From positions 1 through 64,000 of the forward strand of contig NZ_JAUFPS010000042.1 in the NCBI RefSeq assembly GCF_030409315.1: 64,000 nucleotides of DNA, read 5' to 3'. Every line of letters begins with the position of its first letter. Positions within the stretch are counted from its first letter, which is position 1. This DNA is from Mucilaginibacter flavus (GTDB lineage: Bacteria > Bacteroidota > Bacteroidia > Sphingobacteriales > Sphingobacteriaceae). Under the pieces are notes generated by a model. It was not told where the DNA came from, made no database searches, and saw only the letters and a program-made list of their open reading frames with translations. Positions 10,201-60,507 of this stretch are shown here, piece after piece. Position numbers and translations under genes: made by a program.

Positions 10201-12351
10201 ATGCGATTATTCACCAAAGGCCGGTCGATTGCCGGAACCATCCTGGGAAAGGCCGGCTACAACCGTAGCGGGTTCCGGGCCATGGACCGTTTCATGCTCC
10301 CGGCAACCTTTTTATGCCTGGGAACCGGTTATCTTCTTTACCACTATCATCCTGTCACTTACAGCGGAAGTGGTAACGAAGGCAGCCTTTTAGCCAGTCT
10401 GCTGACCATTGGTGTGCTGTTCTTTCTGCTGGTCCGAACTGCCCGACAGAAAAGCGCTGTTGAAAAAAAGCTCAAAACAAGCCAATCCCGGTTCGACAAA
10501 GTCTATAACGCCGGCATTGTCGGTTTGCTTTTTACCCGGCTGGACGGGGTGGTCACCCAAGCCAACGATTCTTTCCTTAACATGATCGGTTATACGGCCG
10601 ATGACTTGAAAAATGAATTGGTCAGTTGGAAAATCCTGACGCCCGAAACCTATCAGGCCGTCTCGGCCCGGGCTGTTGAGCAACTCCGGACACAGGGTTT
10701 CTGCGAACCATTTGAAAAGGAATATATCCGCAAAGATGGTTCGGCTGTCCACGTTGTCGTGGCCTCCGCCTTGCTGGACGGAGATGACCTGGCGGACGCG
10801 ATAACCTATATTATCGACATTTCACACAGGCACCAGGCACGCCTGCGCGAGGAAGAACTGAGTTTATACGTCCTGAAGCAAAAAGAAGAGCTGCAGCGCC
10901 TGCTGATGAACGCGCCGTCGATGATCTCTATACGCCGCGGGCCGGAACTCCGGCTGGAATTCAGTAATCAGACGGCTCAGGATTATGCGGGTACAAAAGC
11001 GCACCTGGGATTGACGCTGCGCGAGACAGCCGACAAATTTCAGGTTAACGCCGGGGCGGAGATCCTGGAAAATGTTTACCGGACCGGTGAAAGGTTTACC
11101 GCCAAAGCCTTCAAATTAAATTTTAACCGCCCGGAAAGCGACAAGCCGCAAGAAGCCTGGTTCGACCTGGTAGTGGAGCCTTTACTCAATGAACTCGGCG
11201 AGATCGACGGCGTAGCCACCTTTGGTTTCAATGTGACCGATATGGTTAAAACGAATGCTGATCTCCGGGAAAGTGAACGGCGCTTCCGTTTTCTGGCAGA
11301 TTCCCTTCCGCATAAGATCTGGACCTGTGGTCCTGACGGCAAAGCGAATTATTACAATAAAGGATGGTTCGATTACCTGGGCGCCGGCACCTTCGAAGAA
11401 GTGCAGGCATCGATATGGGCCGCGATACATCCCGATGATCTCCCCTTGGCCAAAAGCCTTTGGACAAAAGCGGTCGCCACCGGCGAAGATCTGGAACTGG
11501 AGCAACGGTTCAAAAATGCGCAGGGCAACTATGAATGGCACCTGACCCGGTCGTACGCGCATAAAAACGAGGCGGGAGAGGTCGTGCTCTGGATCGGGTC
11601 AAGCACCAATATCCAGGAACAAAAAGCGGTGCAGGAAACGGCTGATCTTCTGTCGCGAAAAAAAGATGAATTCTTAGGCATCGCCAGCCACGAGTTGAAA
11701 ACGCCGATCACCAGCATGAAGGCATCGCTGCAGGTGCTGAACAGCCTGCCTGACGATCAGTTCAAACCCGAAAAGGTGAAATCCTTTGTAGGCATGGCTA
11801 CCCGGCAGGTCAAAAAATTGAGTTTGATCGTGGAGGAACTGCTGGACGTAACCCGTCTTGAAGCCGGCATGATGTCCCTGAATTATTCCGTTTTTTCCTT
11901 GCGTCAAGCAGTCGAGGAATGCCTGGAGGAGATTAAACCTGCGGCCAAAGACAGGATATTCACGGTCCTATCATCCGGAGAATTAATGGTTAACGGTGAT
12001 AAGCTAAGGTTGGAGCAGGTGATCTTTAACTTATTGACGAATGCAGTGAAGTATTCACCGCAGGGGTCGAAGATCACTATCAGTTTGAGCCAGGACGAAA
12101 AGATCAGATGCAGCGTCAGTGATGAAGGGATCGGTTTGCCGGCGGCGCGCCAGCAACTGATCTTTGAAAAGTTTTCACGGGGGCATGACGCCTCGCAAAA
12201 ATATGCCGGACTGGGCCTCGGCCTTTTTATTTCCCGGCAGATCGTCCGGCGGCACGACGGTGAGATCGGTCTGACCAGTTCCCCCGGCCAGGGTACCACG
12301 GCCTGGTTCGAACTGCCGCTTATTCACTTTCGTCAGGCGCCGGGTATTTAG
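10201..12351 (+). CDS. Membrane PAS-domain sensor histidine kinase
   Basis: 716 residues. Two transmembrane helices at about 30-48 and 60-78 are followed by three PAS regions (about 90-205, 225-345 and 350-480). The third contains the PAC-like AYKHE-type end WIGSSTNIQEQKAVQE. The HisKA H-box has His497 in IASHELKTPIT. The HATPase domain (about 595-705) has the N box LLTNAVKYSP, G1 DEGIGLP and G2 GLGLGLFIS. No receiver gene is adjacent. It overlaps the convergent PAS protein by 32 bp. Signal and partner are unknown. Confidence 0.96.
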   Translation: MRLFTKGRSIAGTILGKAGYNRSGFRAMDRFMLPATFLCLGTGYLLYHYHPVTYSGSGNEGSLLASLLTIGVLFFLLVRTARQKSAVEKKLKTSQSRFDKVYNAGIVGLLFTRLDGVVTQANDSFLNMIGYTADDLKNELVSWKILTPETYQAVSARAVEQLRTQGFCEPFEKEYIRKDGSAVHVVVASALLDGDDLADAITYIIDISHRHQARLREEELSLYVLKQKEELQRLLMNAPSMISIRRGPELRLEFSNQTAQDYAGTKAHLGLTLRETADKFQVNAGAEILENVYRTGERFTAKAFKLNFNRPESDKPQEAWFDLVVEPLLNELGEIDGVATFGFNVTDMVKTNADLRESERRFRFLADSLPHKIWTCGPDGKANYYNKGWFDYLGAGTFEEVQASIWAAIHPDDLPLAKSLWTKAVATGEDLELEQRFKNAQGNYEWHLTRSYAHKNEAGEVVLWIGSSTNIQEQKAVQETADLLSRKKDEFLGIASHELKTPITSMKASLQVLNSLPDDQFKPEKVKSFVGMATRQVKKLSLIVEELLDVTRLEAGMMSLNYSVFSLRQAVEECLEEIKPAAKDRIFTVLSSGELMVNGDKLRLEQVIFNLLTNAVKYSPQGSKITISLSQDEKIRCSVSDEGIGLPAARQQLIFEKFSRGHDASQKYAGLGLGLFISRQIVRRHDGEIGLTSSPGQGTTAWFELPLIHFRQAPGI

Positions 12352-13945
12352 CGATGATCGCCGCGGATTTTTCGGTGATCTGGTGAATGACCGCGTCGAG
12401 TTCGCCTGCAGAGACCTTAAGATAATCGATGATCTCCGCTTTTTCCTTTTCCTGTACAGCTTCCGAAAGCATTGGCAGCAGTCCCATGATCCTTACCAGG
12501 GGGGCCCGTACCAGGTGCGACTGCATCCAGGAGATCTCTCTGAACGTTTTATTTTGTTCCTCCACCGACTGCAGGTACAATTTCCGCGCCGTTACATCCC
12601 GGCCCGTAATACAGGCACCGGAAACCCGCTGTTCGTCCAGAACCGGTGTGACCGTGTAGCGTATCCAACTTACGATACCCCGTGTCCGGAACATGCGGTC
12701 GTAGTCGATCGTCTCTCCCTGATAAACTCTGGCAATAATCTCCCTGAAATAGGCTATCCGTGAAGTTTCCACATAGTCAAAAATACTACACCCTACTTCA
12801 AAAGGACGCTGTCCCTTGTTGAAACGCATAGCATCAAGCGCCTTAGGGTTGAACAATTTGATCACCGCTTTTTCATCCAGCAATACGAAGCCGTCGATCG
12901 CACTGTCAAACAAAGCCCGTAAGTTAGACTCGGAATCCCTTACCTTCCGGTTAGCCTCGAACACTTCCAGTTGATGTTCCAGTTGGATGGTAATATCGGC
13001 CGCCTGCACCAGCCGCACCTGACGGCCGTCGACGTTCAACAGGTTACTTTCAATGTTCACGTAGATCATTTCACCGTTCTTTTTTAAATGCTGTGAAACG
13101 CCGCCGTAGTATTGCCCCGACAGTTTATTGGCACGCACCAGCTCCGCTGTTTGCCGGACGCTTTCGGCCGGCCGGATATCCATAATGGTCATTGCCAGGA
13201 ATTCCGGTTTGGAGTAGCCATAATGTTTAAGGGCCGCTTCGTTGACGTCCAGGAACTGAAAGGTATCCGTATCGAACAACCACATCGGCAGCGGGCTTTT
13301 GTAAAAAATCTGCTGGTAACGTTCCTGCAATTGAGTCTTATTAGTGATGGTGAGCTGAAGACCTTTAAAAATGCGGTCGATCAGTAAAATGGTCACCGCG
13401 CTGGCAAAAACCAGATTGGCGCTGAAAGCGATCCATTTGCCGGTGCTGTACTCCGATATCAGCGCAGAATCGAAGAGTTTGAATGCGATCACCGTGCTGA
13501 ATATAGCCAGCAAGACGGCGTTGCTGAGCACAGAAAATACCGCGTAGCGTACCGGAAAGAACAGGGCCGCCAGCACCGTGATGAAAAATAGATAGAACAC
13601 ACCCGGTCCGAGATAGCCCAGCGTGTTGATCAGAAATACAGCAAGCGTATAAAAGACCGTAATGACCGTTATTTTGCGCATACGCAGGGTCAGGCCGGGA
13701 ACGAATGTGACGAAAAAAATAAGGCTGAAACTAGTCAGGTCCACCGCGGCGATAACGGGCAGGCCGTCCCGCAGGGCCATATACACGCCGGGTATTAGCG
13801 CGATCAGACTGATCGGCCAGCAATAGGCCAGGAAATGACAAAATAATTGATCCTGCCAGTAACCAAGTTCCCGGTCATCTGCTTCAGCTGAGCCCAAAAT
13901 ATTGGCGCAGACCATGCCTTCGTACTTTTTTAAAAGTTTGTTCAT
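12320..13945 (-). CDS. Membrane PAS protein ending in a histidine-box domain without ATPase
   Basis: 541 residues. Six or so hydrophobic helices fill residues 35-195, two PAS domains follow (about 205-320 and 340-450), and the protein ends in a two-helix segment with H-box-like QSHLVRAPL (His477) and ELDAVIHQI. A HATPase domain would normally follow, but the chain ends 65 residues after the histidine. The same ending occurs in the genes at 14813 and 28742. It may be a dimerisation/phosphotransfer module served by a kinase in trans, or a non-phosphorylated sensor. A stop-truncation is unlikely because all three end alike. Confidence 0.93.
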   Translation of the reverse strand: MNKLLKKYEGMVCANILGSAEADDRELGYWQDQLFCHFLAYCWPISLIALIPGVYMALRDGLPVIAAVDLTSFSLIFFVTFVPGLTLRMRKITVITVFYTLAVFLINTLGYLGPGVFYLFFITVLAALFFPVRYAVFSVLSNAVLLAIFSTVIAFKLFDSALISEYSTGKWIAFSANLVFASAVTILLIDRIFKGLQLTITNKTQLQERYQQIFYKSPLPMWLFDTDTFQFLDVNEAALKHYGYSKPEFLAMTIMDIRPAESVRQTAELVRANKLSGQYYGGVSQHLKKNGEMIYVNIESNLLNVDGRQVRLVQAADITIQLEHQLEVFEANRKVRDSESNLRALFDSAIDGFVLLDEKAVIKLFNPKALDAMRFNKGQRPFEVGCSIFDYVETSRIAYFREIIARVYQGETIDYDRMFRTRGIVSWIRYTVTPVLDEQRVSGACITGRDVTARKLYLQSVEEQNKTFREISWMQSHLVRAPLVRIMGLLPMLSEAVQEKEKAEIIDYLKVSAGELDAVIHQITEKSAAIIAKYPAPDESE

Positions 13946-14514: not shown

Positions 14515-14812
14515 TTACTGTTAATACTTTATTTTATTGCTTTGGTTTCTATTGTCTTGCGTTCGAGGATTTTTCCGGGCAAATCCCGAAAACTGATCTT
14601 TTTCACTCATGTACAGGCAACAGGCTGTTAGGTAGCATTGTTTCAGCCGGGTGAAACTATCGATACGCAGATCTTTATAGCTCTTCGCATACAATGGTAA
14701 AGGGAATCAGCAATCTGCTGGCCCTGATCGATCAAGTTCGCTTTCTATCATGTATAAATTGGCCGGTTTACAACTTAAAGTTGTTAATTCGCGTAAAAGG
14801 AGGGTGAGGACC
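14515..14812. other. Intergenic region with two short inverted repeats
   Basis: No gene is supported here. GTTTCA (14640-14645) pairs with TGAAAC (14652-14657). ACAACTT/AAGTTGT forms a near-perfect palindrome at 14770-14784, about 30 bp before the next start codon, and could be an operator. An AGGAGG sequence at 14799-14804 is the ribosome site for the gene at 14813. Confidence 0.4.
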
Positions 14813-16345
14813 ATGGAACGTTTGTCGGCATTGAAGAACCAATTGATCATTATTGCTGCGGCGCTGGGCTGGGCTTTCATCGCCGATCCGCTGATCAGCC
14901 GGCTGGCATTGGCGTACGCGCCGGCGCACCGGGATTTGTTCCGGAGCCTGAACTATCTTATCGTCATCCTGCTGGTGAGCTTGATCCTGTACCGGCGCAT
15001 CAGCCGCCAGGCGACTGAGGTCCGCCAGACCCGGGATGATTACCGCCGCCTGTTCGACGAAGTACCGGTCCCCATGTTTATTTTCGACAGCCGGGATTTC
15101 CGTTTTTTGGCGGTCAATAGCGCGGCGACCGTACAGTACGGTTACAGCCAGGCCGAGTTCTTACAGTTGAAGATCACCGACATCCGACCGCCGGAAGAAG
15201 TGCCGGCTTTTTTAGCAGCTGTCGGCCAGGTGCCGGACCGCTATGCCGACGCGGGGCGCTGGCTGCACCGGAAAAAGAACGGGGAAACCTTTTTCGTGCG
15301 CATCTTTTCTCACCACACCGTCTTTGAAGGACTGCCGGCCAAACAGACCCTGGTGATCGATATTGACCAGAAGGTCCGCACTGAAACAGCGCTGGCCGAA
15401 AAGAGCGCCGAACTGGAAAATATGCTTGATAGTATAACGGATGGGTTTTACGCGCTGAACAGCCGCTGGGAGGTAACGTATATCAACAAAGCAGCCGAAA
15501 AAACCTTGTGCTGCACCAAGGGAGACATCCTGGGCAAAAACCTGTGGGACTTTTTCCCGAATTCCCGGGACGGAAGGTTCTATGCCGAATATGAACGGGC
15601 CATGAACGAGCGGATCAGCGTACAATTTGAGGGGTACTATGCACCGCTGGGGGTCTGGGGCTCGATGAGCGTTTATCCCACCAAAGAAGGCATCGCCGTT
15701 TATTTTGTAGATATTACCGAACAGAAAAAGATCCAGGAAAAGATCTATAATGACGGTCAGAACCTGCGCGCGATCATCAATAACACGCGCGACCTGATCT
15801 GGTCGGTCGACCTGCAGTCCCGGATCATCACCGGCAACCAGGCTTTTTGGACACGCGTCAAAGAACTCACCGGCAAAGGCGAGGAGGAGGTCAGCAACGC
15901 CGATTTTGTACAAGAGCGTGTAGCCGTTTTTTTCGAAAGCTATGAGCGTGCCTTTAAGGGCGAGGCCTTCAGCCTGGTCCGGCAACGTGAGCTGGATGGC
16001 CGGCAGGTTTTCGAAGAGCTCAGCTTTAACCCGATCCGGGACATCCATCAGTCGGTCATCGGCGTGAACTGTTTCCTGCGGGATATCACCGACGCACAAC
16101 AGTACCTGCACCAGATCGAAGAGCAAAACAAACGGCTGCGGGAGATCGCCTGGATACAGTCGCACCGCGTGCGCGCGCCGGTGGCCAGTATCCTCGGACT
16201 TGCGCAGCTTTGCGACCCTAATGATTCACCCAATGCCGAGATCATCCCGATGCTGAAAAAATCGGCTGAAGACCTTGACCGTGTGATCATGGAGATCACC
16301 GCGCTAACACAGGACCTGGATAAGCCGGGTTCAGTGTCACTTTGA
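14813..16345 (+). CDS. PAS protein ending in a histidine-box domain without ATPase
   Basis: I chose ATG 14813 (MERLSALKNQ), 510 residues, because AGGAGG lies 9 nt upstream. An in-frame ATG at 14750 would add 21 residues without a ribosome site. Two membrane helices lie at about 10-30 and 44-60, then three PAS regions (about 75-190, 200-310, 320-430). The C-terminus has IQSHRVRAPVASILGL (His451) and a second helix SAEDLDRVIMEIT, then stops. No HATPase domain is present. It is the second of three proteins in this window with this ending, and the closest relative of the gene at 12320. Confidence 0.92.
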   Translation: MERLSALKNQLIIIAAALGWAFIADPLISRLALAYAPAHRDLFRSLNYLIVILLVSLILYRRISRQATEVRQTRDDYRRLFDEVPVPMFIFDSRDFRFLAVNSAATVQYGYSQAEFLQLKITDIRPPEEVPAFLAAVGQVPDRYADAGRWLHRKKNGETFFVRIFSHHTVFEGLPAKQTLVIDIDQKVRTETALAEKSAELENMLDSITDGFYALNSRWEVTYINKAAEKTLCCTKGDILGKNLWDFFPNSRDGRFYAEYERAMNERISVQFEGYYAPLGVWGSMSVYPTKEGIAVYFVDITEQKKIQEKIYNDGQNLRAIINNTRDLIWSVDLQSRIITGNQAFWTRVKELTGKGEEEVSNADFVQERVAVFFESYERAFKGEAFSLVRQRELDGRQVFEELSFNPIRDIHQSVIGVNCFLRDITDAQQYLHQIEEQNKRLREIAWIQSHRVRAPVASILGLAQLCDPNDSPNAEIIPMLKKSAEDLDRVIMEITALTQDLDKPGSVSL

Positions 16346-28741: not shown

Positions 28742-29332
28742 CTATTCGTCGGTTTTATCCGAGATATCCCTGACCACCTGGTCCAACTCATCCGCGCTTT
28801 CGAGGAGCATCGCGCAAAGCTGGCCGGTCTTTTCGTCTTTCAGTTCTTCGCTGATGAGTTTGCTCAGGCCAATGATATTGGCCAGGGGTTTGCGCACGAG
28901 GTGCGATTGCATAAAGCCGATATCGCTAAGCTGGTTGTTCGCCGAGGCCAGACGGCTTTGGGTATCGACAAATTCGGTGATGTTATAGCCGATACAAAAG
29001 ATACCTTCGGGCTGCCCTTGCTGGTCGAACAGGGCCTGCATTTCCCATTGCGTGGTCACATATCCGCCGCTCCCGTCGTGCTTGCGCAGGGTTGCCGAAA
29101 ACAACTCGCCGGGTGCGCTGAAGCACTGGCCGCCGACCTGCGCGCAGATCGCGACATCCTCCGGGTGCAGGGTGACACTGAAATGCCGGCCCAGCAAGGT
29201 GCCGTTGGTAAATTCAAAATTACGGTCATAGTTCTTACTGACGTAAGTATAGGTGCTGTCCATGCCGATCGCAATGGTATAGAAAAAAGAAGAATCCTTC
29301 AGGAACTGGTTGACCTGGGCGAAATGGTTCAT
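28742..29332 (-). CDS. Small PAS protein ending in a histidine-box domain without ATPase
   Basis: 196 residues: one PAS domain (about 10-125, with FTNGTLLGRHF and the PAC-like GIFCIGYNITEFVD) and a C-terminal two-helix module, FMQSHLVRKPLANIIGL (His144) and ADELDQVVRDIS, ending 53 residues after the histidine. No catalytic domain. This is the minimal version of the architecture at 12320 and 14813. The protein appears complete because all three stop at the same point. It lies near a DUF892-like gene on the same strand. Confidence 0.9.
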   Translation of the reverse strand: MNHFAQVNQFLKDSSFFYTIAIGMDSTYTYVSKNYDRNFEFTNGTLLGRHFSVTLHPEDVAICAQVGGQCFSAPGELFSATLRKHDGSGGYVTTQWEMQALFDQQGQPEGIFCIGYNITEFVDTQSRLASANNQLSDIGFMQSHLVRKPLANIIGLSKLISEELKDEKTGQLCAMLLESADELDQVVRDISDKTDE

Positions 29333-29516: not shown

Positions 29517-29810
29517 ATGAGCCCTGAAAACGCAAAACAAGAATTGCTGCAGTATGCGCTGGCTGACCTGCAAGTATCGCTCCATTTAATGATCGAAGTA
29601 TGCCGAATCGTCAAAATCAGCGGATTCGCCGATCCCAATGACCTGGTTTGCCTGAGCGCACGCCAGGCTGAGCTGAAGCGGCTCGCCAGACAGCTGCTGA
29701 TGGATTATGTGGAAGGCGATGAGGTGTTGGGTTCCCAGGTCGAAATGAACTTTCTCAAGATCGAATTGGCGGAGATCTTGAGCAGCCGTAGCATTAGAAT
29801 GAGTTCATGA
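29517..29810 (+). CDS. Small conserved hypothetical protein
   Basis: 97 residues, almost entirely helical in appearance (ELLQYALADLQVSLHLMIEV, then ARQAELKRLARQLLMDYVEG). No domain recognised. It overlaps the convergent DUF892-like gene by 6 bp. The upstream gap (29333-29516) shows no clear promoter, although TATAACTTG near 29499 is close to a -7 box. Confidence 0.55.
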   Translation: MSPENAKQELLQYALADLQVSLHLMIEVCRIVKISGFADPNDLVCLSARQAELKRLARQLLMDYVEGDEVLGSQVEMNFLKIELAEILSSRSIRMSS

Positions 29811-30341
29811 TATAGGGCGGGAATCCGGTGTAAAATATTGCCGGGTGATCAGCTGCAGCATCGCCAGGTCTTCCCGGGCTTCATTAAAATTTTTGAGGAG
29901 CAATTGCTGAATTTTTTCTCTTGCCAGCAAGGGGGCTGCCAGGTTCAGCAATCTGAAGGAAGTACTTTCCAGGCTTTCAATGTTCTGCAGGTACAACAGG
30001 ATCGAAAGATCACGCATTTGCCTATCCTCATCTTCCAGGTAGATCGCGCTGAAGGCATCTTCGATCAATCCGATCATAGCCTGGCAATTGTCCAGCTGGG
30101 GTGTTAAGCCCAGCAGACCGTAGATCTCGTCCATTCGGACGACCTGCTTGTCGATAACGATTTGCGTTTCGCTGATCGCCTTAGTAAGGTCTATGAACCC
30201 GGAATAATTGCTGATCTCCGGTAGCCGTTCCTGCAAATGGGCTTTGACACAATAAACCCGATCGAGATGGAGGACAAAGAAATGCTGTATTTGTTGTGCG
30301 GTTAAAGAACCCTGGGGTCCGGATGCTGACGAATCTTCCAT
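29805..30341 (-). CDS. Divergent DUF892 (YciE-like) four-helix protein
   Basis: 178 residues with the DUF892 length and helix plan but altered metal sites. Canonical helix 1, DIYWAE, reads VYCVKA with a Lys in place of Glu. A histidine three residues before the VYC segment (FFVLHLDRVY) is shared with the paralogues at 45051 and 49263. Helix 2 loses its Glu (TQIVID). Helix 3 KVEHYE becomes NIESLES. A diiron site is unlikely. The position of the shared His on a four-helix bundle suggests a non-ferritin role; this is inference. Confidence 0.85.
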   Translation of the reverse strand: MEDSSASGPQGSLTAQQIQHFFVLHLDRVYCVKAHLQERLPEISNYSGFIDLTKAISETQIVIDKQVVRMDEIYGLLGLTPQLDNCQAMIGLIEDAFSAIYLEDEDRQMRDLSILLYLQNIESLESTSFRLLNLAAPLLAREKIQQLLLKNFNEAREDLAMLQLITRQYFTPDSRPIS

Positions 30342-30561: not shown

Positions 30562-31110
30562 ATGAAAAAAGAAACAGGGGAACCTCAATTCAGCACTAAA
30601 ACATCACCGAAGGCGGAGCCCGCCTTACTGGAATTATTTACCGATGGGATCAAGGATATTTACTGGGCGGAAAACCATTTGGTGAAGAGCCTGCCGAAAA
30701 TGCAAAAGGCCGCGACTTCCAAGACTTTGGTAGCTGCCATCGAAAGCCATTTGGAAGAAACTAAAACCCATGTAAGCCGGCTGGAGCAGGTATTCGGCCT
30801 ACTGGGCGAAAAAGTGCAGGCACAGAAATGCGACGCCATGGAAGGCCTGGCCAAAGAAGGTGAAGGCATCGTGGAAAGTACTGAACCCGGGACGGCAACC
30901 CGCGACGTGGGTATTATTCTCGCTTCGCAAAAAGTGGAGCATTACGAAATTGCCACTTATGGTGGTTTAACCCAGTTAGCCAAAACTTTAGGACTGGATG
31001 AAGTAGCTGAGCTGCTTTACCAAACCCTGACCGAAGAAAAAGCGGCCGATCAGCAACTGACCGAAGTGGCCGAAAGTGATATCAATTATAAAGCAGCAGA
31101 TGAGCAATAA
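30562..31110 (+). CDS. Ferritin-like DUF892 protein (YciE/YciF type), canonical
   Basis: 182 residues. The four-helix ferritin-like ligands are present: DIYWAE (helix 1), HLEETKTH (helix 2), KVEHYE (helix 3) and LTEEKAAD (helix 4). Family members are induced by osmotic and oxidative stress. The stop codon overlaps the start of the catalase gene by 11 bp, so the two are translationally coupled. A joint role in peroxide or iron handling is plausible. TACTTTCG upstream (near 30511) is one base off a -7 box. Confidence 0.94.
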   Translation: MKKETGEPQFSTKTSPKAEPALLELFTDGIKDIYWAENHLVKSLPKMQKAATSKTLVAAIESHLEETKTHVSRLEQVFGLLGEKVQAQKCDAMEGLAKEGEGIVESTEPGTATRDVGIILASQKVEHYEIATYGGLTQLAKTLGLDEVAELLYQTLTEEKAADQQLTEVAESDINYKAADEQ

Positions 31111-45028: not shown

Positions 45029-45050
45029 GCCGGGCTATAATCATAACTAT

Positions 45051-45560
45051 ATGGAAAATCAAAGCCGCCAACCATCGCATTTACTAAGCACGGAGGAGCT
45101 CCGGGTCTTCTTTATCAGTCACCTGAACCGTATTTATTGCGCCAAAAACCAGCTGGTGGACAAATTGCCGCAGTTGGGCAAACGTTCGCATTACCTGGAC
45201 CTGCAGCAGGCCATCGGCGAAACCATCGATATAGTCAGGATGCAAATCAAAAGGATGCAGGAGATATATATCCGGCTGGACACTTTTTATCAGCCGGAGA
45301 GTTGCGTGGGGCTGGCGGGCATCCTGGATGAAGCCTTTCAGTCCATCGGTGCGCCGGGCGACAGCGCGGCCTTACGTGACCTTTCGATATTGTTCTACAT
45401 GTATAATATCGAGAGTATTGAAACATCCTCGTTTAAAACGCTGCTCCGCGTGGCTGATCATTTCCCGGATAAAGCGGTGGTCCAGTTGCTGGTCGAATGT
45501 TATGATGAAGCCAGGGAAGATAAGGTCTTGTTCCGTCAGATCACCGAAGCCTACGTATAA
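45051..45560 (+). CDS. Divergent DUF892 (YciE-like) four-helix protein
   Basis: 169 residues from ATG 45051 (MENQSRQPSHLLSTEEL). It follows the DUF892 helix plan, but helix 1 reads ISHLNRIYCAKNQL, with Lys instead of the ferritin-like Glu and the same shared His as its paralogues at 29805 and 49263. Helix 2 reads TIDIVRM and helix 3 NIESIETS, so His and some Glu ligands are lost. It is not expected to bind a canonical diiron centre. It ends at a strong terminator and is preceded by the membrane-protein gene. Confidence 0.85.
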   Translation: MENQSRQPSHLLSTEELRVFFISHLNRIYCAKNQLVDKLPQLGKRSHYLDLQQAIGETIDIVRMQIKRMQEIYIRLDTFYQPESCVGLAGILDEAFQSIGAPGDSAALRDLSILFYMYNIESIETSSFKTLLRVADHFPDKAVVQLLVECYDEAREDKVLFRQITEAYV

Positions 45561-46648: not shown

Positions 46649-47170
46649 ATGGAAAACAACACAGGAGGATCGTTCAATCAAAACGATCAGAACCAAAGCA
46701 GTGGTTCAGCAGATCAAAACAATCAACAAAACCGCAGTGGCGATCAGGAGCAACAAAGCAATTCGGGCATAGGCGGCAGCCAGGGTTCCTCGAATCAGGA
46801 CTGGAACAGCAGCCAGGGCCAGCAGGATAATAACCGCAGTGGTGGTCAGGAGCAACAAAGCAATTCGGGCATGGGCGGCAGCCAGGGTTCCTCGAATCAG
46901 GACTGGAACAGCAGCCAGGGCCAGCAGGACAGTAACCGCAGTGCCGGTCAGGAACAACAAAGCAATTCGGGCATGGGCGGCAGCCAGGGTTCCTCAAATC
47001 AGGACTGGAACAGCAGCCAGGACCAGCAGGAGAATAACCGCGGCAGCCAGCAGGAACAACAGTCAACAGGCGACCAAAGTTACCGCGACCAGGAGTCGGA
47101 CCGCAGCGGCAACGACCTGCAGGATGATGAGCTGGACAACAGCGAGGGCGACCAGGATTCACAAATCTAA
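46649..47170 (+). CDS. Repeat-rich low-complexity Q/S/N protein
   Basis: 173 residues, dominated by Gln, Ser, Asn, Gly and Asp with almost no hydrophobic residues. Three tandem 34-residue units contain QEQQSNSG, MGGSQGSSNQDWNSS and DNNR, with a degenerate fourth. The end is acidic (DDELDNSEGDQDSQI). It is hydrophilic and probably disordered, reminiscent of hydrophilin-type stress proteins; that is inference. A 13-bp perfect hairpin follows 14 bp after the stop. Confidence 0.85.
   Translation: MENNTGGSFNQNDQNQSSGSADQNNQQNRSGDQEQQSNSGIGGSQGSSNQDWNSSQGQQDNNRSGGQEQQSNSGMGGSQGSSNQDWNSSQGQQDSNRSAGQEQQSNSGMGGSQGSSNQDWNSSQDQQENNRGSQQEQQSTGDQSYRDQESDRSGNDLQDDELDNSEGDQDSQI
46741..47065 (+). repeat. 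Tandem 102-bp coding repeats
   Basis: The 102-bp unit starts (by the TCAGG landmark) near 46744, 46846 and 46948, with a degenerate fourth copy near 47050. The copies are nearly identical at the nucleotide level, which suggests recent expansion. Repeat number may vary between strains. Confidence 0.85.
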
Positions 47171-47243: not shown

Positions 47244-47609
47244 TTATTGCTGGCTTAAATGTTGTCTGACCTTGCCGACCAGCTCATCCAGGTCAAATGG
47301 CTTGGCCATAAAATCGGTGGCACCGGCATTCATGGCAATGGCTTTGCCGTCGGTACTGGCCGATATGACGATGACCGGCAGGGCTTTGGTCGCGGGATTG
47401 TCCCGCAGGGATTTAAGCACCTGGTCACCTGAGAGTACCGGCATCCACAGATCAAGCAAGATCAAATCAGGGTGTTCGCGGTCAATGACCCCGGCTACAT
47501 TCAGGCTGTTCACTTCGGGTATGGTTTGGAAGCCTTCTTCGGCCAGCACAATGTCAACGAGATCCAGGATACCTTCGTCATCGTCGCAGATCAGGATTTT
47601 AGCGGACAT
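47244..47609 (-). CDS. Single-domain response regulator (receiver only)
   Basis: 121 residues from ATG 47609 (MSAKILICDDDEGILDL). The acidic triad DDD is at residues 9-11, phosphoacceptor Asp53 in LILLDLWMP, switch Ser in VIVISAS and Lys in FMAKPFDL near residue 104. Its start lies inside the 3' end of the upstream histidine kinase gene (11-bp overlap), so it is very likely its cognate receiver. No output domain is attached. Confidence 0.95.
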   Translation of the reverse strand: MSAKILICDDDEGILDLVDIVLAEEGFQTIPEVNSLNVAGVIDREHPDLILLDLWMPVLSGDQVLKSLRDNPATKALPVIVISASTDGKAIAMNAGATDFMAKPFDLDELVGKVRQHLSQQ

Positions 47610-49152
47610 CGGCTGCTCCTTCCGCTTGGTCGAGTGGCAGGGTGAAACTAAACGTGGCGCCCTTGCCCGGTTCACTTTCTACCCAAAGCGTACCGCCATG
47701 ATTTTTGATGATCTCTGCGCAGACGTAAAGCCCGATGCCCATGCCCGGGAAACGCTGCTGTATGTTCTTGACGCGGTAAAAGCGCTCAAATACTTTCTGG
47801 TGCTCATCGCGGGAAATTCCGACACCCTGGTCGGTAACAGCAACTTTAAGATAGTCGCCGACCGTTGATAAATGTAACTTCACCTGCTGCGCTTCCGGGG
47901 AATATTTAACGGCATTGCTCAGCAAATTAGTGATGACCTGCGAAATGTGCGATTCATCGCCGTTGAACTGGCTATCAGTTGCGCCGCTGATGGTAATTTC
48001 GTGCGAGTTTGTCGCCTGGCGGATGCTGTCCGCGGCTTCTTTGACCATCTGGTCAAAATCAAAGGGCTGCTTGTGCAGTTCGATGCTGCCGGACTGGATA
48101 CGGGAAACGTCCAGGAGTTCGCTGATCAGGTTATTGAGCCGTTCCACATACAAGGAAGTTTTACTGACCGCGTTCTTTAATTTCTCGTCCCCGCTTTGCG
48201 CGGTCAGGCGGTTGATGATCTGGACGTGCCCTTTGACGGTGGTCAACGGGGTCTTCAACTCGTGACTGGCGATGGACAGGAAGTCGTCCTTGCGCTGTTC
48301 TATCGCGCGACGCTCGGTGATGTCTTCAATTGCCAATAAAATCCGGTCCTTATACTGGCCTTCCAGTTCGATCCGGTGCGCATTGAGCAGCATGAGTTTT
48401 TTACCGATATGCGGGAAATCATGGCTGACCTCGAAATCGATAACCGGGTTATTGGTCGGCAGGATCTGTTCGAGCAAGCGGCGGAGTTCGGCAATATCCC
48501 ACTGGCCATTGCCCAGGTCGAATAAGCTGCGGCCCTCGGTTTCTTCGCGGGAAACTTTAAAGGTGCGCTTGAAATGATCATTGACAAATATGACCTTGTA
48601 ATCCGGCGAAAGCACGATCAGGCTTTCGCGCACGGTCTGAACGATACTGGCGAGGTATTCCTCGTTTTCCCGGAGGCTTTGGGTCCGCTCGGCTACCCGC
48701 TGCTCCAGTTTCGACTGGTTTGACTTGAGTTCCTCCTCCGCGTTTTTTCGGCGGGTTACATCATTCTGAACACCGATGAAATAATCGACCGCTCCGCTGC
48801 TGTTCTTGATCGGCGATACATTTAGTTCATTCCAGAACAGGGTACCGTCTTTTCGGTAATTCCTGATCTCGATCACGGAGTTATTGCCCGCGGCGATATC
48901 CTGGCGCAGTTGCGCGCGTGCTGGCTGGTTGCGGTCGTCTTTTTGCAGGAACCGGCAGTTGTGCCCGATGATCTCGGCGCGGCTGTAGCCGGTGATCTGC
49001 TCGAACGCAGCATTACAATATATGATAGGATTATCCGGCTGGTTGTTATCGGTAATGATAATACCTGAAATGGAAGCGTCCAGCGCTTTTTTGAGCAACT
49101 CGACATCCTTGCTCACGATGTGGTCAGCCGTGTTTTTTTTTTCATCCGACAT
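47599..49152 (-). CDS. Cytoplasmic PAS histidine kinase
   Basis: 517 residues from ATG 49152 (MSDEKKNTADHIV). A TTG start 15 nt earlier is less likely. Two PAS domains: the first (about 20-140) carries the LOV-like sequence GHNCRFLQKDDRNQPARAQL. GxNCRFLQ is the flavin-binding cysteine motif of LOV photoreceptors, so blue-light sensing is plausible. A coiled coil and a second PAS follow. HisKA has His297 in IASHELKTPLTT. HATPase has LLSNAVKYSP, TDQGVGIS and GMGIGLYV. It overlaps its downstream receiver gene. Confidence 0.95.
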   Translation of the reverse strand: MSDEKKNTADHIVSKDVELLKKALDASISGIIITDNNQPDNPIIYCNAAFEQITGYSRAEIIGHNCRFLQKDDRNQPARAQLRQDIAAGNNSVIEIRNYRKDGTLFWNELNVSPIKNSSGAVDYFIGVQNDVTRRKNAEEELKSNQSKLEQRVAERTQSLRENEEYLASIVQTVRESLIVLSPDYKVIFVNDHFKRTFKVSREETEGRSLFDLGNGQWDIAELRRLLEQILPTNNPVIDFEVSHDFPHIGKKLMLLNAHRIELEGQYKDRILLAIEDITERRAIEQRKDDFLSIASHELKTPLTTVKGHVQIINRLTAQSGDEKLKNAVSKTSLYVERLNNLISELLDVSRIQSGSIELHKQPFDFDQMVKEAADSIRQATNSHEITISGATDSQFNGDESHISQVITNLLSNAVKYSPEAQQVKLHLSTVGDYLKVAVTDQGVGISRDEHQKVFERFYRVKNIQQRFPGMGIGLYVCAEIIKNHGGTLWVESEPGKGATFSFTLPLDQAEGAADVR

Positions 49153-49262
49153 AGGTAGGTCACGCAATTATTGAAAAACTTATCAGATCTATTAAACCGC
49201 TTTGGCGTGATAATGTTTACAGGCAGTCGTCTAAAATTACGTTGTGCTGAAAAGCCGGGCGG

Positions 49263-49787
49263 TTATTTGGTGATGTATTTGGCGGCGATCAGCAACAATA
49301 AGGTGCGGTCAGCTTTAGCCTCATCGTAATTTTCCTGGAGCAGTTGTTTGACCTGTTTATTTTGCAACTTAACGGCGGCCATCTGCAAGATCTGGAAGGA
49401 GGCCATTTCCATACTCTCAATGTTTTGCAGATAAAATATGATCGACATATCGCGAAGTTCGGCTTCGTCTGCCTGTGCCGCTATGGCTTCAAACGCGTCG
49501 TCGACCAGGCCGGTGAGGCCCTTGATGTTGCCATCCGTATGGGTGGCATCCAGCAATTCATAAATGACGTCCATCCGGGCCATTTGCTTTTCCACGTCTT
49601 CAACGGTTTCGCGGATAGCCAGTTGCAGGTCCTTGAAGTAAGCTTCGTCGTTCAATTGCGGCAACCTGGTCACCAGATGGGCTTTAGCGCTGTAGATGCG
49701 GTTAAGATGATCAATGAAAAAAGTTTTTAATTTTTCTGACCCTAACTGTATTTGTCTAGGGGACGGTTTTCCTGGTTCATTTGTCAT
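49263..49787 (-). CDS. Divergent DUF892 (YciE-like) four-helix protein
   Basis: 174 residues from ATG 49787 (MTNEPGKPSPRQIQL; an ATG at 49796 is alternative). Helix 1 reads IDHLNRIYSAKAHL, with the shared His and Lys instead of the ferritin Glu. Helix 2 keeps one Glu (TVEDV). Helix 3 is NIESMEMA and helix 4 NYDEAKAD. The gene is 18 bp downstream of a receiver gene and 110 bp upstream of a kinase-receiver pair, all on the same strand, which links this family to phosphorelay genes by position. Confidence 0.87.
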   Translation of the reverse strand: MTNEPGKPSPRQIQLGSEKLKTFFIDHLNRIYSAKAHLVTRLPQLNDEAYFKDLQLAIRETVEDVEKQMARMDVIYELLDATHTDGNIKGLTGLVDDAFEAIAAQADEAELRDMSIIFYLQNIESMEMASFQILQMAAVKLQNKQVKQLLQENYDEAKADRTLLLLIAAKYITK

Positions 49788-49805
49788 AGGCCTCATGCAG
49801 ACAAG

Positions 49806-50171
49806 CTAGGCGAGGCATTCCTCCACCTTTGCCAGCAGATCAAAAATATCAAAAGGTTTTCTAATATAGGCATCTGCACCGCATTCTTTTGCGATAATGG
49901 ACAGATCTGATTCGGCAGATACGAGCATTACCGGAAGATGGCGCGTTTCCAGCTGCGATTTAATTTCTCTACATATCTCCGGGCCGTTTTTAGCCGAACC
50001 GACGATCCGTACATCCAGCAGGATGAGGTCCGGTTGAATAACGCGGATATGTTCAGCAGCTTCGCCGGTGTTGGACATTACAATATCGTACCCATTCTCC
50101 TGGAATATAATATTTAATATTTCCAGGATGTCCTCATCATCATCTATAACCAATATTCTTCTTGTCATCAT
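49806..50171 (-). CDS. Single-domain response regulator (receiver only)
   Basis: 121 residues from ATG 50171 (MMTRRILVIDDDEDILEIL), preferred to the longer frame at 50231. The acidic triad is at 10-12, Asp53 lies in LILLDVRIVG, the switch Ser in VMLVSAES, and Lys in YIRKPFDIFD. An inserted VGSAKNGPEI loop after the phosphosite resembles the other receivers here. It is the first gene of a minus-strand receiver, DUF892-like, kinase, receiver series. Confidence 0.94.
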   Translation of the reverse strand: MMTRRILVIDDDEDILEILNIIFQENGYDIVMSNTGEAAEHIRVIQPDLILLDVRIVGSAKNGPEICREIKSQLETRHLPVMLVSAESDLSIIAKECGADAYIRKPFDIFDLLAKVEECLA

Positions 50172-56701: not shown

Positions 56702-57259
56702 ATGCCTACAAAAACAAACAAAAAAGCGACTGCAGCAGCTGCAAGCCGCTCTGAAAAAGCCGAAAGCGCTTTAAAAGAATTATTCGTTGACGAATTGAAA
56801 GATATTTACTGGGCCGAAAAGCATTTAGCTACCGCCTTACCGAAACTGATCAAGGGCGCAACTTCGGAGGATCTGAAACAAACGATCACTACCCACCTGG
56901 AAGAAACCAAGAACCAGATCACCCGTCTGGAAAGCGTGTTTGCCTCAGTTGGTGAAAAAGCTGCCGCTAAAAAATGTCTGGCCATGGAAGGCTTGTTAGC
57001 AGAGGCCACTGAACTGTTATCAGATACGGATAAAGGAACTGAAGTACGCGATGTGGCCATTATTTCGGCAGCTCAAAAAGTAGAACATTACGAGATCGCC
57101 TCTTATGGCACCCTGCGCACTTTGGCAGGAACGTTAGGTTACAGCGAAGCGCAAAGCCTGCTAGATGAAACCCTGGCCGAAGAAAAAAATGCAGATTCCC
57201 TGCTGACCCAGGTAGCCGAGAATTATGTAAACGAAGCCGCTGCTGCGGAGGTTGAATAA
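56702..57259 (+). CDS. Ferritin-like DUF892 protein (YciE/YciF type), canonical
   Basis: 185 residues. A basic leader MPTKTNKKATAAAASRSEKA precedes the domain, with ligand segments DIYWAEKHL, HLEETKNQ, KVEHYE and LAEEKNADSLL all present. It is close to the protein at 30562 and likewise probably a stress-induced ferritin-like protein. It has its own terminator. TATTATTTG near 56625 is close to a -7 box but has one extra base. Confidence 0.94.
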   Translation: MPTKTNKKATAAAASRSEKAESALKELFVDELKDIYWAEKHLATALPKLIKGATSEDLKQTITTHLEETKNQITRLESVFASVGEKAAAKKCLAMEGLLAEATELLSDTDKGTEVRDVAIISAAQKVEHYEIASYGTLRTLAGTLGYSEAQSLLDETLAEEKNADSLLTQVAENYVNEAAAAEVE

Positions 57260-57330: not shown

Positions 57331-60063
57331 TCAGAGCGGCAGTCTAAAATGAAAGATGCTGCCTTTGCCCGGTTCGCTTTCTGCCCATATTTTGCCGCCG
57401 TGACGTTCAATGATCTCCGAGCTCAGGTAGAGTCCGATGCCAAAGCCCGCAATATGTCGGGTGTGATCTGCTTCCACCCGGTAATAACGGTCAAATATCT
57501 TATCTAAGTCCTGGGCTCTGATCCCCAGGCCTTCATCTTTTACACTGACGGTCACTTGTCCATCGCCCGCAGCGCAGCTGATCTCGATCGGTGCTCCTTT
57601 AGGAGAGTATTTGATCGCATTGCTGAGCAGATTGGAGATCACAGAGCCGATCTTGTCCCGGTCCGCTGTCACGGTGATCGGTGGGCAGCGGTCAAACCGG
57701 ATCAGATCGGTATTTGCGGTCAGGCTGGCTTCGCTGATCATATCCGCGATCAGTTCCCCGATATCCAACGGTTGTTTATCGATATGGATCTTACCCGATT
57801 CCAGACGGGAGATATTCAAAAAGCCGTTGATCATGTTGGTCATCCGTTTGACCTGCTGTCCAGCTTTTTCTATAGCTCCGATCAGAAATTTGTCTTCACT
57901 GTTCTTTAGCTTGAGGTTAGCCACCTGGACGATCGCACTGAGTGAGGTCAGCGGTGTTTTGAGCTCATGGCTCACCATCCCGATAAAATCGCCTTTCCGG
58001 GTCTCATCGAGTTTTTTCTCCGTGATATCACGCGCGATCTTGGATATACCGATCATGTTACCCTGCCGGTCTCTGATCGGCGATATGGTCAGCGACACAT
58101 CTATCAGGCGGCCATCTTTGGTTTGCCGTTTGGTTTCGAAGTGCTGTACCCGTTGCCCGGATCTCAGACGCGAGATGATCTGCGGCTCTTCATGATGCAA
58201 CTCATCAGGTATGAGCTTATAGATGCTTTCGCCGATCATTTCCCCCGCGGTATAACCAAAGATCCGTTCAGCCGCATCGTTCCAGCTGGTGATCACACTG
58301 TCGAAGGTTTTACTGATGATGGCATCATCCGAGGACTGAATGATCGCAGCCAGTTTGGCGCTTTGCTCTTCGGCGGATTTGATATCGGTAATGTCCAGCA
58401 CGGTTCCGATGAACCGGGCCGCCTCACCCCGGTCAAAGAATGCGGTTCCCTGTACCTTGATCCAGCGGATCTCTTCATCTCCAAAACGAATGATCCGAAA
58501 AGTGATTTCATAATGCCCCCCTTTTTGGGGGTCTATGGCTCTTTGTATCTGTTGTTGTACCCAGTCGTGGTCTTCCGGATGGATGTGCTCAGAGAAAGTA
58601 GCAAAAGTCGGCTCCTGGTCAGGCGGTAGTCCATAGATCTCGCGGCATTCCTTTGACCAGTAGAGTGCGCCGCTGCGGGGATCATAATCCCAGGTGCCCA
58701 GGCGGGTGGATTCGATAGCCATCTTTAAACGTGAAGTGCTGGTCTCCAGTTCATGATTCGTGGCCTGCAGGCGCTGCTGCATCGAGATCAGTTCTTCATT
58801 GGTGGTGATCAATTCCTCATTGGAGGCAGCCTGTTCTTCATTTACGGCGATCATCTCCTCGTTCACAGCCTGTAATTCTTCCGAGGCCTGGGCCAGTTTC
58901 TCTTCCCAGACCTTACGTTCGGTAATATCCCTTGTCGTGCCCGCAACAGCTTCCACTTCCCCTTCAGCATTCAGTACCGGTATCAAAATATAATCGTAGA
59001 TCCGTTTGCCCAGGGTGGCATGGGGGAAAGCCACCTCGCCTCGCACGGATTTTTTGGTTGCCCTGACCTGGTCGATCTCCCGTTCATGCATTGCAGCATG
59101 CCATTCTTCATAACCATTCTCACGCAGACCTTTGCCGATGGCGTTGTCCCAGGTCTTGCCCCACATGGCCAGCAGTGCACTGTTGACATAGGTAAAATTA
59201 TAATCGAGGTCCCAGACATACATCAGGTCGGGCGTTCCGGAAGTGATCGTCTCATAGACCCTGCGTTGACGGTCTGCCTGTTCACGGGTTTCCCGCAAGG
59301 CCGCTTCGATCTGCTTATGTTGGGTAATATCGCTGGCGGTACCAAACCATTCCAGGATCTCGCCCCGGTCATCCAGAATGGGGACCGCGCGGGAAAAGGT
59401 CCAGCCCGTCGAACCGTTAGCGCGCAATACGCGGTGTTCCAATTCAAAGATCTTTTTATCCCGGATCGCTTCGCTGATCTTTATATTGACCATTTCCATA
59501 TCGTCCGGGTAGACGTTTTGATCACGCCAGCCCGTGATCGGTTCCAGGGTGTCGCGCAAAAAGCCGCGGCCATCCAGCGGTCGCATCACTTCCCAATCGG
59601 GACTGAGGCTGTAGATCACATCGGATGTTGCGGTAACAAGGGCGCGCAGCCTTTCTTCGTCGGCAGCAATGGCCCGCCGTTCTTTTACCTGCTTGGTATT
59701 TTCCAGTACCCAGACCGCGATCTTGCTGACCTTATTCGTGTTATCCAAAACCGGTGCATAAACGAAGGTTACGAAGATCAGTTCTTCACGGCCGTGACGG
59801 ATAAGCATCAATTCAACTTCGTTGGCATAAAATGCCTCACCCGATTCTGCCACTCTTTTCAGCGCACTTGCATAAAGTGATTCTGCTTCGGCAAAAGGTT
59901 CCCAATACCATTTGCCGAGGATTGCTGCCCTGGGCTTGCCTGCGATCTCCAGGAATTTATCGTTAACGATCTCAGCGACCAATGTGGCCGCATCCAGTAT
60001 GCAGATACCGATGGGTGCGGTCAGTACCGCTTTCTCTAAATTTTCTCCGTTGGTCAGTTGCAT
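57331..60063 (-). CDS. Multi-PAS cytoplasmic histidine kinase
   Basis: 910 residues from ATG 60063 (MQLTNGENLEKAVLTAPIGI); the longer frame to 60192 runs through the receiver remnant. Five or six PAS regions occupy about residues 10-680, with a NEEL-type coiled coil in the middle (EELQAVNEEMIAVNEEQAAS). HisKA has His699 in MVSHELKTPLTSL. HATPase has LLSNAIKYSP, KDEGLGIRA and GFGIGLYL. No membrane segment. A broken receiver gene adjoins upstream on the other strand. The PAS-rich layout resembles the kinase at 16419, without its C-terminal extra domain. Confidence 0.95.
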   Translation of the reverse strand: MQLTNGENLEKAVLTAPIGICILDAATLVAEIVNDKFLEIAGKPRAAILGKWYWEPFAEAESLYASALKRVAESGEAFYANEVELMLIRHGREELIFVTFVYAPVLDNTNKVSKIAVWVLENTKQVKERRAIAADEERLRALVTATSDVIYSLSPDWEVMRPLDGRGFLRDTLEPITGWRDQNVYPDDMEMVNIKISEAIRDKKIFELEHRVLRANGSTGWTFSRAVPILDDRGEILEWFGTASDITQHKQIEAALRETREQADRQRRVYETITSGTPDLMYVWDLDYNFTYVNSALLAMWGKTWDNAIGKGLRENGYEEWHAAMHEREIDQVRATKKSVRGEVAFPHATLGKRIYDYILIPVLNAEGEVEAVAGTTRDITERKVWEEKLAQASEELQAVNEEMIAVNEEQAASNEELITTNEELISMQQRLQATNHELETSTSRLKMAIESTRLGTWDYDPRSGALYWSKECREIYGLPPDQEPTFATFSEHIHPEDHDWVQQQIQRAIDPQKGGHYEITFRIIRFGDEEIRWIKVQGTAFFDRGEAARFIGTVLDITDIKSAEEQSAKLAAIIQSSDDAIISKTFDSVITSWNDAAERIFGYTAGEMIGESIYKLIPDELHHEEPQIISRLRSGQRVQHFETKRQTKDGRLIDVSLTISPIRDRQGNMIGISKIARDITEKKLDETRKGDFIGMVSHELKTPLTSLSAIVQVANLKLKNSEDKFLIGAIEKAGQQVKRMTNMINGFLNISRLESGKIHIDKQPLDIGELIADMISEASLTANTDLIRFDRCPPITVTADRDKIGSVISNLLSNAIKYSPKGAPIEISCAAGDGQVTVSVKDEGLGIRAQDLDKIFDRYYRVEADHTRHIAGFGIGLYLSSEIIERHGGKIWAESEPGKGSIFHFRLPL

Positions 60064-60135
60064 AATGGGACAGGTTTTCCGTGAATAGCAAATAAACCAA
60101 AAACAACGGGTTTTGTTTAGCAGTGGCTTAGGGAT

Positions 60136-60507
60136 GCGGACTCCTGCAAACATTTTATCACCAGGCCATCCTGGACGTCGTTGCCGAAGCACTGTTGTAT
60201 GAGCAGTTTGAGGTATTGGGATATCGCGTTGGGCAGTCAGCTGTTCGATGCCGTGCGGGAATTCTCGCCGGAATTGATCCTGCTGGACTACCGGCTCGCG
60301 GATACCAATGGCGGCGATCTTTGCCGGCAGTTAAAGGCTTCACCCGAATACCGCCATATTCCGGTGGTTATTTTCTCAGCTTGCTTTACGGCGGCGGACA
60401 CGGCGCTCCCAGAGGGCTGCGACGGGATCCTGTACAAGCCGTTTGATCTGGAATCCTTGTTGAACACGGTTTACGGTTTTCTGGACGGTACTACAGCCAA
60501 CCGGTAG
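60136..60507 (+). pseudogene. Decayed single-domain receiver
   Basis: The receiver sequence is split across frames. One frame gives ILDVVAEALLYEQFEVLGYR (60158-60222); another gives LGSQLFDAVREFSPELILLD, the phospho-Asp segment LLDYRLADTNGG and ILYKPFDLESLL to the stop at 60507. The join needs a frame change near 60222-60232. The start also seems shifted, since ATG 60136 (MRTPAN) leads out of frame. It resembles the receivers at 23720, 47244 and 49806. Two lesions suggest true decay. Confidence 0.65.

Follow-up and report, generated by a model that had tools for sequence, protein, structure and literature searches.

The four-gene array of Mucilaginibacter flavus described here almost certainly consists of two conserved two-gene modules, judging from its gene order in relatives: a sensor histidine kinase with a LOV domain followed by a stand-alone receiver (LOV-HK and RR2), and a second stand-alone receiver followed by a divergent DUF892/YciF ferritin-like protein (RR1 and DUFa). 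The array lies in a 64,000-nucleotide stretch of contig NZ_JAUFPS010000042.1 (the window), in a genome of 6.96 Mb. The four minus-strand open reading frames, in the order RR1, DUFa, LOV-HK and RR2, were confirmed at the positions given by a first-pass annotation, as were the gaps of 18 bp between RR1 and DUFa and 110 bp between DUFa and the kinase, and the 11-bp overlap of the kinase with RR2 (Table 1). The DUFa reading frame may open 9 nt earlier, at 49796; the Met at 49787 (M4) is the start kept in relatives.

Table 1. Features of the array, in window coordinates.
Feature	Position	Strand	Basis
RR1, stand-alone receiver, 121 aa	49806..50171	-	Pfam Response_reg 9.2e-19
DUFa, divergent DUF892/YciF ferritin-like protein, 174 aa	49263..49787	-	Pfam DUF892 1.8e-20
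Intergenic gap between modules, 110 bp	49153..49262	-	gene coordinates
LOV-PAS-HisKA-HATPase sensor kinase, 517 aa	47599..49152	-	Pfam, NCBIfam, PDB matches
LOV domain of kinase, ~residues 18-135	48748..49101	-	motifs GHNCRFLQ, NYRKDGTLFWNEL, FIGVQ
RR2, stand-alone receiver, 121 aa	47244..47609	-	Pfam Response_reg 3.1e-21

Both receivers match Pfam Response_reg alone and possess no output domain, as had been read earlier. The active site of RR1 comprises the acidic cluster D10-D12, the phospho-acceptor D53 and the conserved S/T and K; these residues are kept in nearly all orthologues and have degenerated in two copies within a single genome. The phospho-acceptor of RR2 is also D53, and a comparison by eye of the residues for kinase-receiver specificity did not distinguish RR1 from RR2. 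No promoter site with a simple Bacteroidota pattern (TTG-N16-23-TAnnTTTG, one mismatch allowed) was found in the 110-bp gap or 5′ of RR1, a weak and uninformative test. A four-gene operon is without support, the 110-bp gap dividing modules that are rearranged in relatives.

The kinase contains two PAS domains, a HisKA domain (2.5e-13) and a HATPase_c domain (9.1e-33) according to Pfam, and its phospho-acceptor is H297 in the motif SHELKTPL. The first PAS domain is a LOV domain, a feature absent from the first-pass annotation. It carries GHNCRFLQ, with the adduct cysteine C66, together with NYRKDGTLFWNEL and FIGVQ, and residues 19-151 match the YtvA-family LOV model of NCBIfam (6e-51), a match that falls under the model's whole-protein cut-off, as expected because one domain alone matches. 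The best PDB sequence matches are LOV-kinase constructs derived from PpSB1 and YtvA. The protein is a predicted blue-light LOV histidine kinase, which would bind flavin and change its activity with light. An RR2 homologue lies directly downstream of LOV-HK in 30 of 30 loci (29 relatives and the window), and GxNCRFLQ, including the LOV cysteine, is retained in all 30 LOV-HK orthologues examined. This pairing holds with or without RR1-DUFa nearby, and most LOV-HK-RR2 loci are without RR1-DUFa.

The second pair is about as strict. Across 120 Mucilaginibacter genomes, RR1 is located just upstream of DUFa for 37 of the 38 DUFa genes (those scoring at least 255 bits), a count that includes two genes with degenerate receivers. 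Receivers were sought at the loci with a six-frame scan, so those lying under longer spurious open reading frames (L068, L074 and L080) were counted; the genome-wide tests are built on search matches. The gaps between RR1 and DUFa are mostly 0-110 bp, with one of about 300 bp, and the genome with the sole unpaired DUFa (G019) has an RR1 homologue on a different contig. In contrast, an upstream receiver is absent from all 32 canonical DUF892 genes of this data set. The pair is also found in Pedobacter and Daejeonella. Outside the family, 395 sampled Bacteroidota genomes yielded no close DUFa relative, the matches there not exceeding 89 bits, a score such as canonical DUF892 proteins reach. No receiver-DUF892 fusion was seen at the loci examined. 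Since each pair is conserved in relatives, chance adjacency is untenable for LOV-HK-RR2 and for RR1-DUFa alike. The RR1-DUFa pair seems to be undescribed, because no paper combining DUF892 with "response regulator" or "two-component" was found in the open literature searched. One genome (G010) has two near-identical DUFa copies (L071 and L072), each below a degenerate receiver in which the acidic cluster and other active-site residues are altered, suggesting that the receiver may decay while DUFa persists.

DUFa scores 74 bits against Pfam DUF892, for which the cut-off is 23.7. Its AlphaFold model (pLDDT 87.9) best matches the YciF structures 4eru, 2gyq, 2gs4 and 7tmv, with Z of 23.8-24.2, an rmsd of 1.3-1.9 over 153-157 residues and 23-28% identity, and further ferritin-like proteins match at Z 18 or lower. 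DUFa thus shares the ferritin-like fold of YciF from E. coli and Salmonella and of canonical DUF892 proteins, but differs from the latter at positions that are probably metal ligands, as conservation and the ferritin-like fold suggest. In 32 canonical DUF892 proteins, E38, H64, H128, E160 and D164 (numbering of the window DUFa) are conserved at 87-93%, and E127 and E130 are invariant. The receiver-paired DUFa proteins (n=43) keep E127 and E130, and replace the other five, with E38K in 100%, H64T in 97%, H128S in 95%, E160A in 100% and D164R in 100%; five of the seven conserved likely di-metal ligands are therefore swapped. The metal site appears to have been dismantled, with the leftover carboxylates presumably neutralised by Lys and Arg. 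It is highly improbable that DUFa has kept a metal-dependent role like that of YciF, as a stress enzyme or an iron store, and that RR1 is an unlinked neighbour. The fold, the Pfam family and the retained E127 and E130 would fit such a protein, but the near-complete replacement of the five residues, with K or R in two cases, and the pairing of nearly every DUFa gene with RR1 argue against it. K38 is present in every unpaired divergent DUFa-like paralogue, which indicates that the metal site was lost before receiver pairing arose or without connection to it. Two such paralogues occur in the window, DUFb (45045-45560, +) and DUFc (29805-30341, -), both with the K38 swap and no adjacent receiver; the canonical YciF genes of the window occupy 30562-31110 and 56702-57259.

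The same model bears on the single phosphorelay put forward by the first-pass annotation, in which phosphate would pass through the DUF892-like protein. LOV-HK would pass phosphate to RR2 or RR1, and DUFa would act between the receivers in the manner of an HPt protein. DUFa is an all-helical bundle beside two receivers, and H40, its only invariant histidine, is invariant among the receiver-paired proteins. However, histidine also predominates at position 40 in unpaired divergent paralogues (67%) and occurs there in 34% of canonical DUF892 proteins, and H40 therefore is not tied to receiver pairing. Moreover, the best fold match of the model is YciF (Z 24, 153-157 residues), with other ferritin-like proteins scoring lower, and LOV-HK-RR2 mostly occurs without RR1-DUFa, and vice versa. 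Because of the YciF fold and the non-specific H40, a relay through DUFa was rejected as the main reading, and the relay is very unlikely overall; both are compatible with phosphorylation of DUFa, but nothing supports it.

Four residues, Q135, K143, R164 and K173, are near-invariant solely in receiver-paired DUFa and are candidate receiver-contact residues from this pattern of conservation. Some stand-alone receivers are known to have helical-bundle partners, for example CheZ. DUFa might be a phosphatase or regulator of RR1 of this kind, with RR1 itself as the effector or a phosphate sink. The strictness of the RR1-DUFa pairing and the conservation of the polar residues Q71, Q135, D116 and R164 in paired DUFa are in keeping with such a role. 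On the other hand, no resemblance to CheZ, CheX or Rap proteins in sequence or fold was noticed and no RR1 target besides DUFa is indicated, and we consider this role for DUFa unlikely. Close gene linkage need not mean that RR1 binds DUFa. That RR1 acts on DUFa, instead of the reverse or neither, is in our judgement a little short of an even chance.

The two modules are arranged differently among relatives. The window order, RR1-DUFa-LOV-HK-RR2, is shared with M. conchicola (L038), where 88% DNA identity begins upstream of RR1 and ends at window position 48393. The M. conchicola kinase has a frame break near residue 129 and ends after residue 253, and RR2 is lost; RR1 and DUFa are intact despite this truncation. 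Elsewhere the order is LOV-HK-RR2-RR1-DUFa on one strand (L046, L063, L065 and L066), or the two modules are convergent (L049/L091), so that at least three arrangements bring LOV-HK next to RR1-DUFa. Mapped onto the tree of DUFa, this adjacency requires 3 changes with the labelled rows and 5 with all rows, at least two of them forced by well-supported branches; LOV-HK has been recruited beside RR1-DUFa at least twice. By sequence, the LOV kinases adjoining RR1-DUFa divide into two groups, whose identity to the kinase of the window is about 65-100% in one and 51-56% in the other. Gene order in relatives is conserved within the modules and not between them. The strict pairings, the varied orders and the case of M. 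conchicola thus bear out the other possibility raised by the first-pass annotation, that of two separate modules. It holds for their separateness, and not in the sense that the modules are unrelated, since they co-occur and co-locate far above chance.

LOV-HK is found in 19 of 32 genomes with RR1 against 17 of 88 without it (Fisher p 4.6e-5, 120 genomes), a p value that ignores phylogeny and genome size, both of which are confounders. The shortest distances between LOV-HK and RR1-DUFa in the closed genomes holding both are 0.9, 3.8, 5.6 and 36 kb, giving a combined p of 1.8e-7 under random placement from only these four genomes. HisKA-type kinases lie within 5.5 kb of RR1-DUFa at 15 of 34 loci, compared with 2 of 40 control regions of the same genus and none of 16 unpaired DUFa-like loci. 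The share of LOV-HK in the latter contrast is not significant alone (6/34 vs 0/16, p 0.08). From these comparisons, the LOV-HK-RR2 and RR1-DUFa modules are probably linked functionally. An alternative interpretation might be that they are independent stress genes sharing a horizontally mixed stress-tolerance island. The window is indeed rich in such genes, with catalase, two canonical YciF, DUF4142 proteins, general-stress SDRs and many PAS kinases, the majority of LOV-HKs do not adjoin RR1-DUFa, and the simple pattern revealed no promoter shared by the two modules. But adjacency that arose at least twice, in differing orders, and the enrichment of kinases near receiver-paired DUFa and not near unpaired DUFa-like genes (with the above reservation for LOV-HK alone) speak against independence, and we hold this interpretation to be doubtful.

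LOV-HK cannot be the sole kinase of RR1, because it is frequently tens of kb from RR1-DUFa and is missing from 13 of the 32 genomes in which the pair occurs. Another kinase family, about 370 residues long and with a PAS-like N-terminus, HisKA and HATPase_c, adjoins RR1-DUFa at five loci (L044, L046, L058, L060 and L067), where its members are 62-80% identical. In a search of the genus, 6 of its 11 closest copies had an RR1 gene at a distance of about 4 kb or less; the family is absent from the window genome. As kinases recur near RR1-DUFa, LOV-HK among them, RR1-DUFa looks like a receiver-partner module with interchangeable kinases.

Other genes of the window may be relevant to signalling. A 953-aa multi-PAS HisKA kinase is encoded at 57331-60192 (-), about 7 kb upstream of RR1; its HisKA segment resembles, by eye, that of the ~370-aa kinase beside RR1-DUFa in relatives, and it is a possible alternative phosphate donor for RR1. 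Three PAS proteins, at 12320-13945 (-), 14750-16345 (+) and 28742-29332 (-), end in a HisKA/DHp-like segment (xxQSHLVRxPLxxIxGL), and no HATPase domain was detected in them; the first also bears MASE11. Possibly they are degenerate kinases, or act in phosphotransfer only, and serve the stand-alone receivers. At L065, a HATPase-less PAS protein of this sort directly precedes the RR1-DUFa pair. Next to the array, a Gln/Ser/Asn/Gly-rich protein with near-identical internal repeats and no Pfam match is encoded at 46649-47170 (+), its convergent end being 73 bp from the RR2 stop. The region 28000-57300 forms a stress-tolerance cluster, in which genes were named by sequence reading and partly by domain search: catalase with an ankyrin partner, YciF-type DUF892, DUF4142 secreted proteins, stress SDRs, a Rieske FAD oxidoreductase, MscS and DUF421 genes.

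Compared with known systems, the array resembles LovK-LovR of Caulobacter crescentus, in which LovR can serve as a phosphate sink, together with MrrA, a further stand-alone receiver that is a hub of the general stress response (PMC5964349). In both cases a LOV kinase is accompanied by a stand-alone receiver, and an additional stand-alone receiver is present. LovK is among the HWE/HisKA2-type kinases, as described for Alphaproteobacteria (PMC12148442), whereas the window kinase has a second PAS domain and matches HisKA and no HWE/HisKA2 model; LOV-HK-RR2 is for this reason likened to LovK-LovR and not classed as a member. The LovK-LovR type is further characterised by its action on the general stress response of PhyR, NepR and EcfG. 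The DUF892 partner also has no counterpart in Caulobacter. The LOV core with GxNCRFLQ and the best PDB matches are shared with the short LOV proteins YtvA and PpSB1 and with YF1-type LOV kinases. However, the YF1-type kinases are engineered chimeras, while the window protein is a natural LOV-PAS-HisKA-HATPase kinase.

The best explanation for the array, to which we give about an even chance of being correct, is a light module similar to LovK-LovR combined with a second receiver that has a metal-less pseudo-ferritin as its dedicated partner. Blue light would generate a Cys66-flavin adduct in LOV-HK, which would alter autophosphorylation or phosphatase activity at H297, and RR2 would take up or drain the phosphoryl group of LOV-HK. 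RR1 would receive its phosphate from HisKA kinases encoded nearby, from LOV-HK in the window and several relatives and from the ~370-aa PAS kinase elsewhere. With or without phosphate, RR1 may bind DUFa and alter its part in a stress response; most likely, RR1 would be a phosphorylation-controlled switch of DUFa. The setting rich in stress genes (catalase, canonical YciF, DUF4142, SDR and PAS kinases) points to stress tolerance.

We tentatively propose, as a broader and less probable generalisation, that RR1, phosphorylated by interchangeable kinases including the LOV kinase, switches DUFa as a repurposed ferritin-like scaffold. Single-domain response regulators of Sphingobacteriaceae would then have a class of output not described before. 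Few stand-alone receivers have a known target, and the function of DUF892/YciF proteins is not settled; the RR1-DUFa pair offers both of them one testable partner. If the LOV kinase feeds RR1-DUFa, Bacteroidota would have a light-to-stress circuit whose parts differ from those of LovK/PhyR in Alphaproteobacteria and of YtvA/sigma-B in Bacillus.
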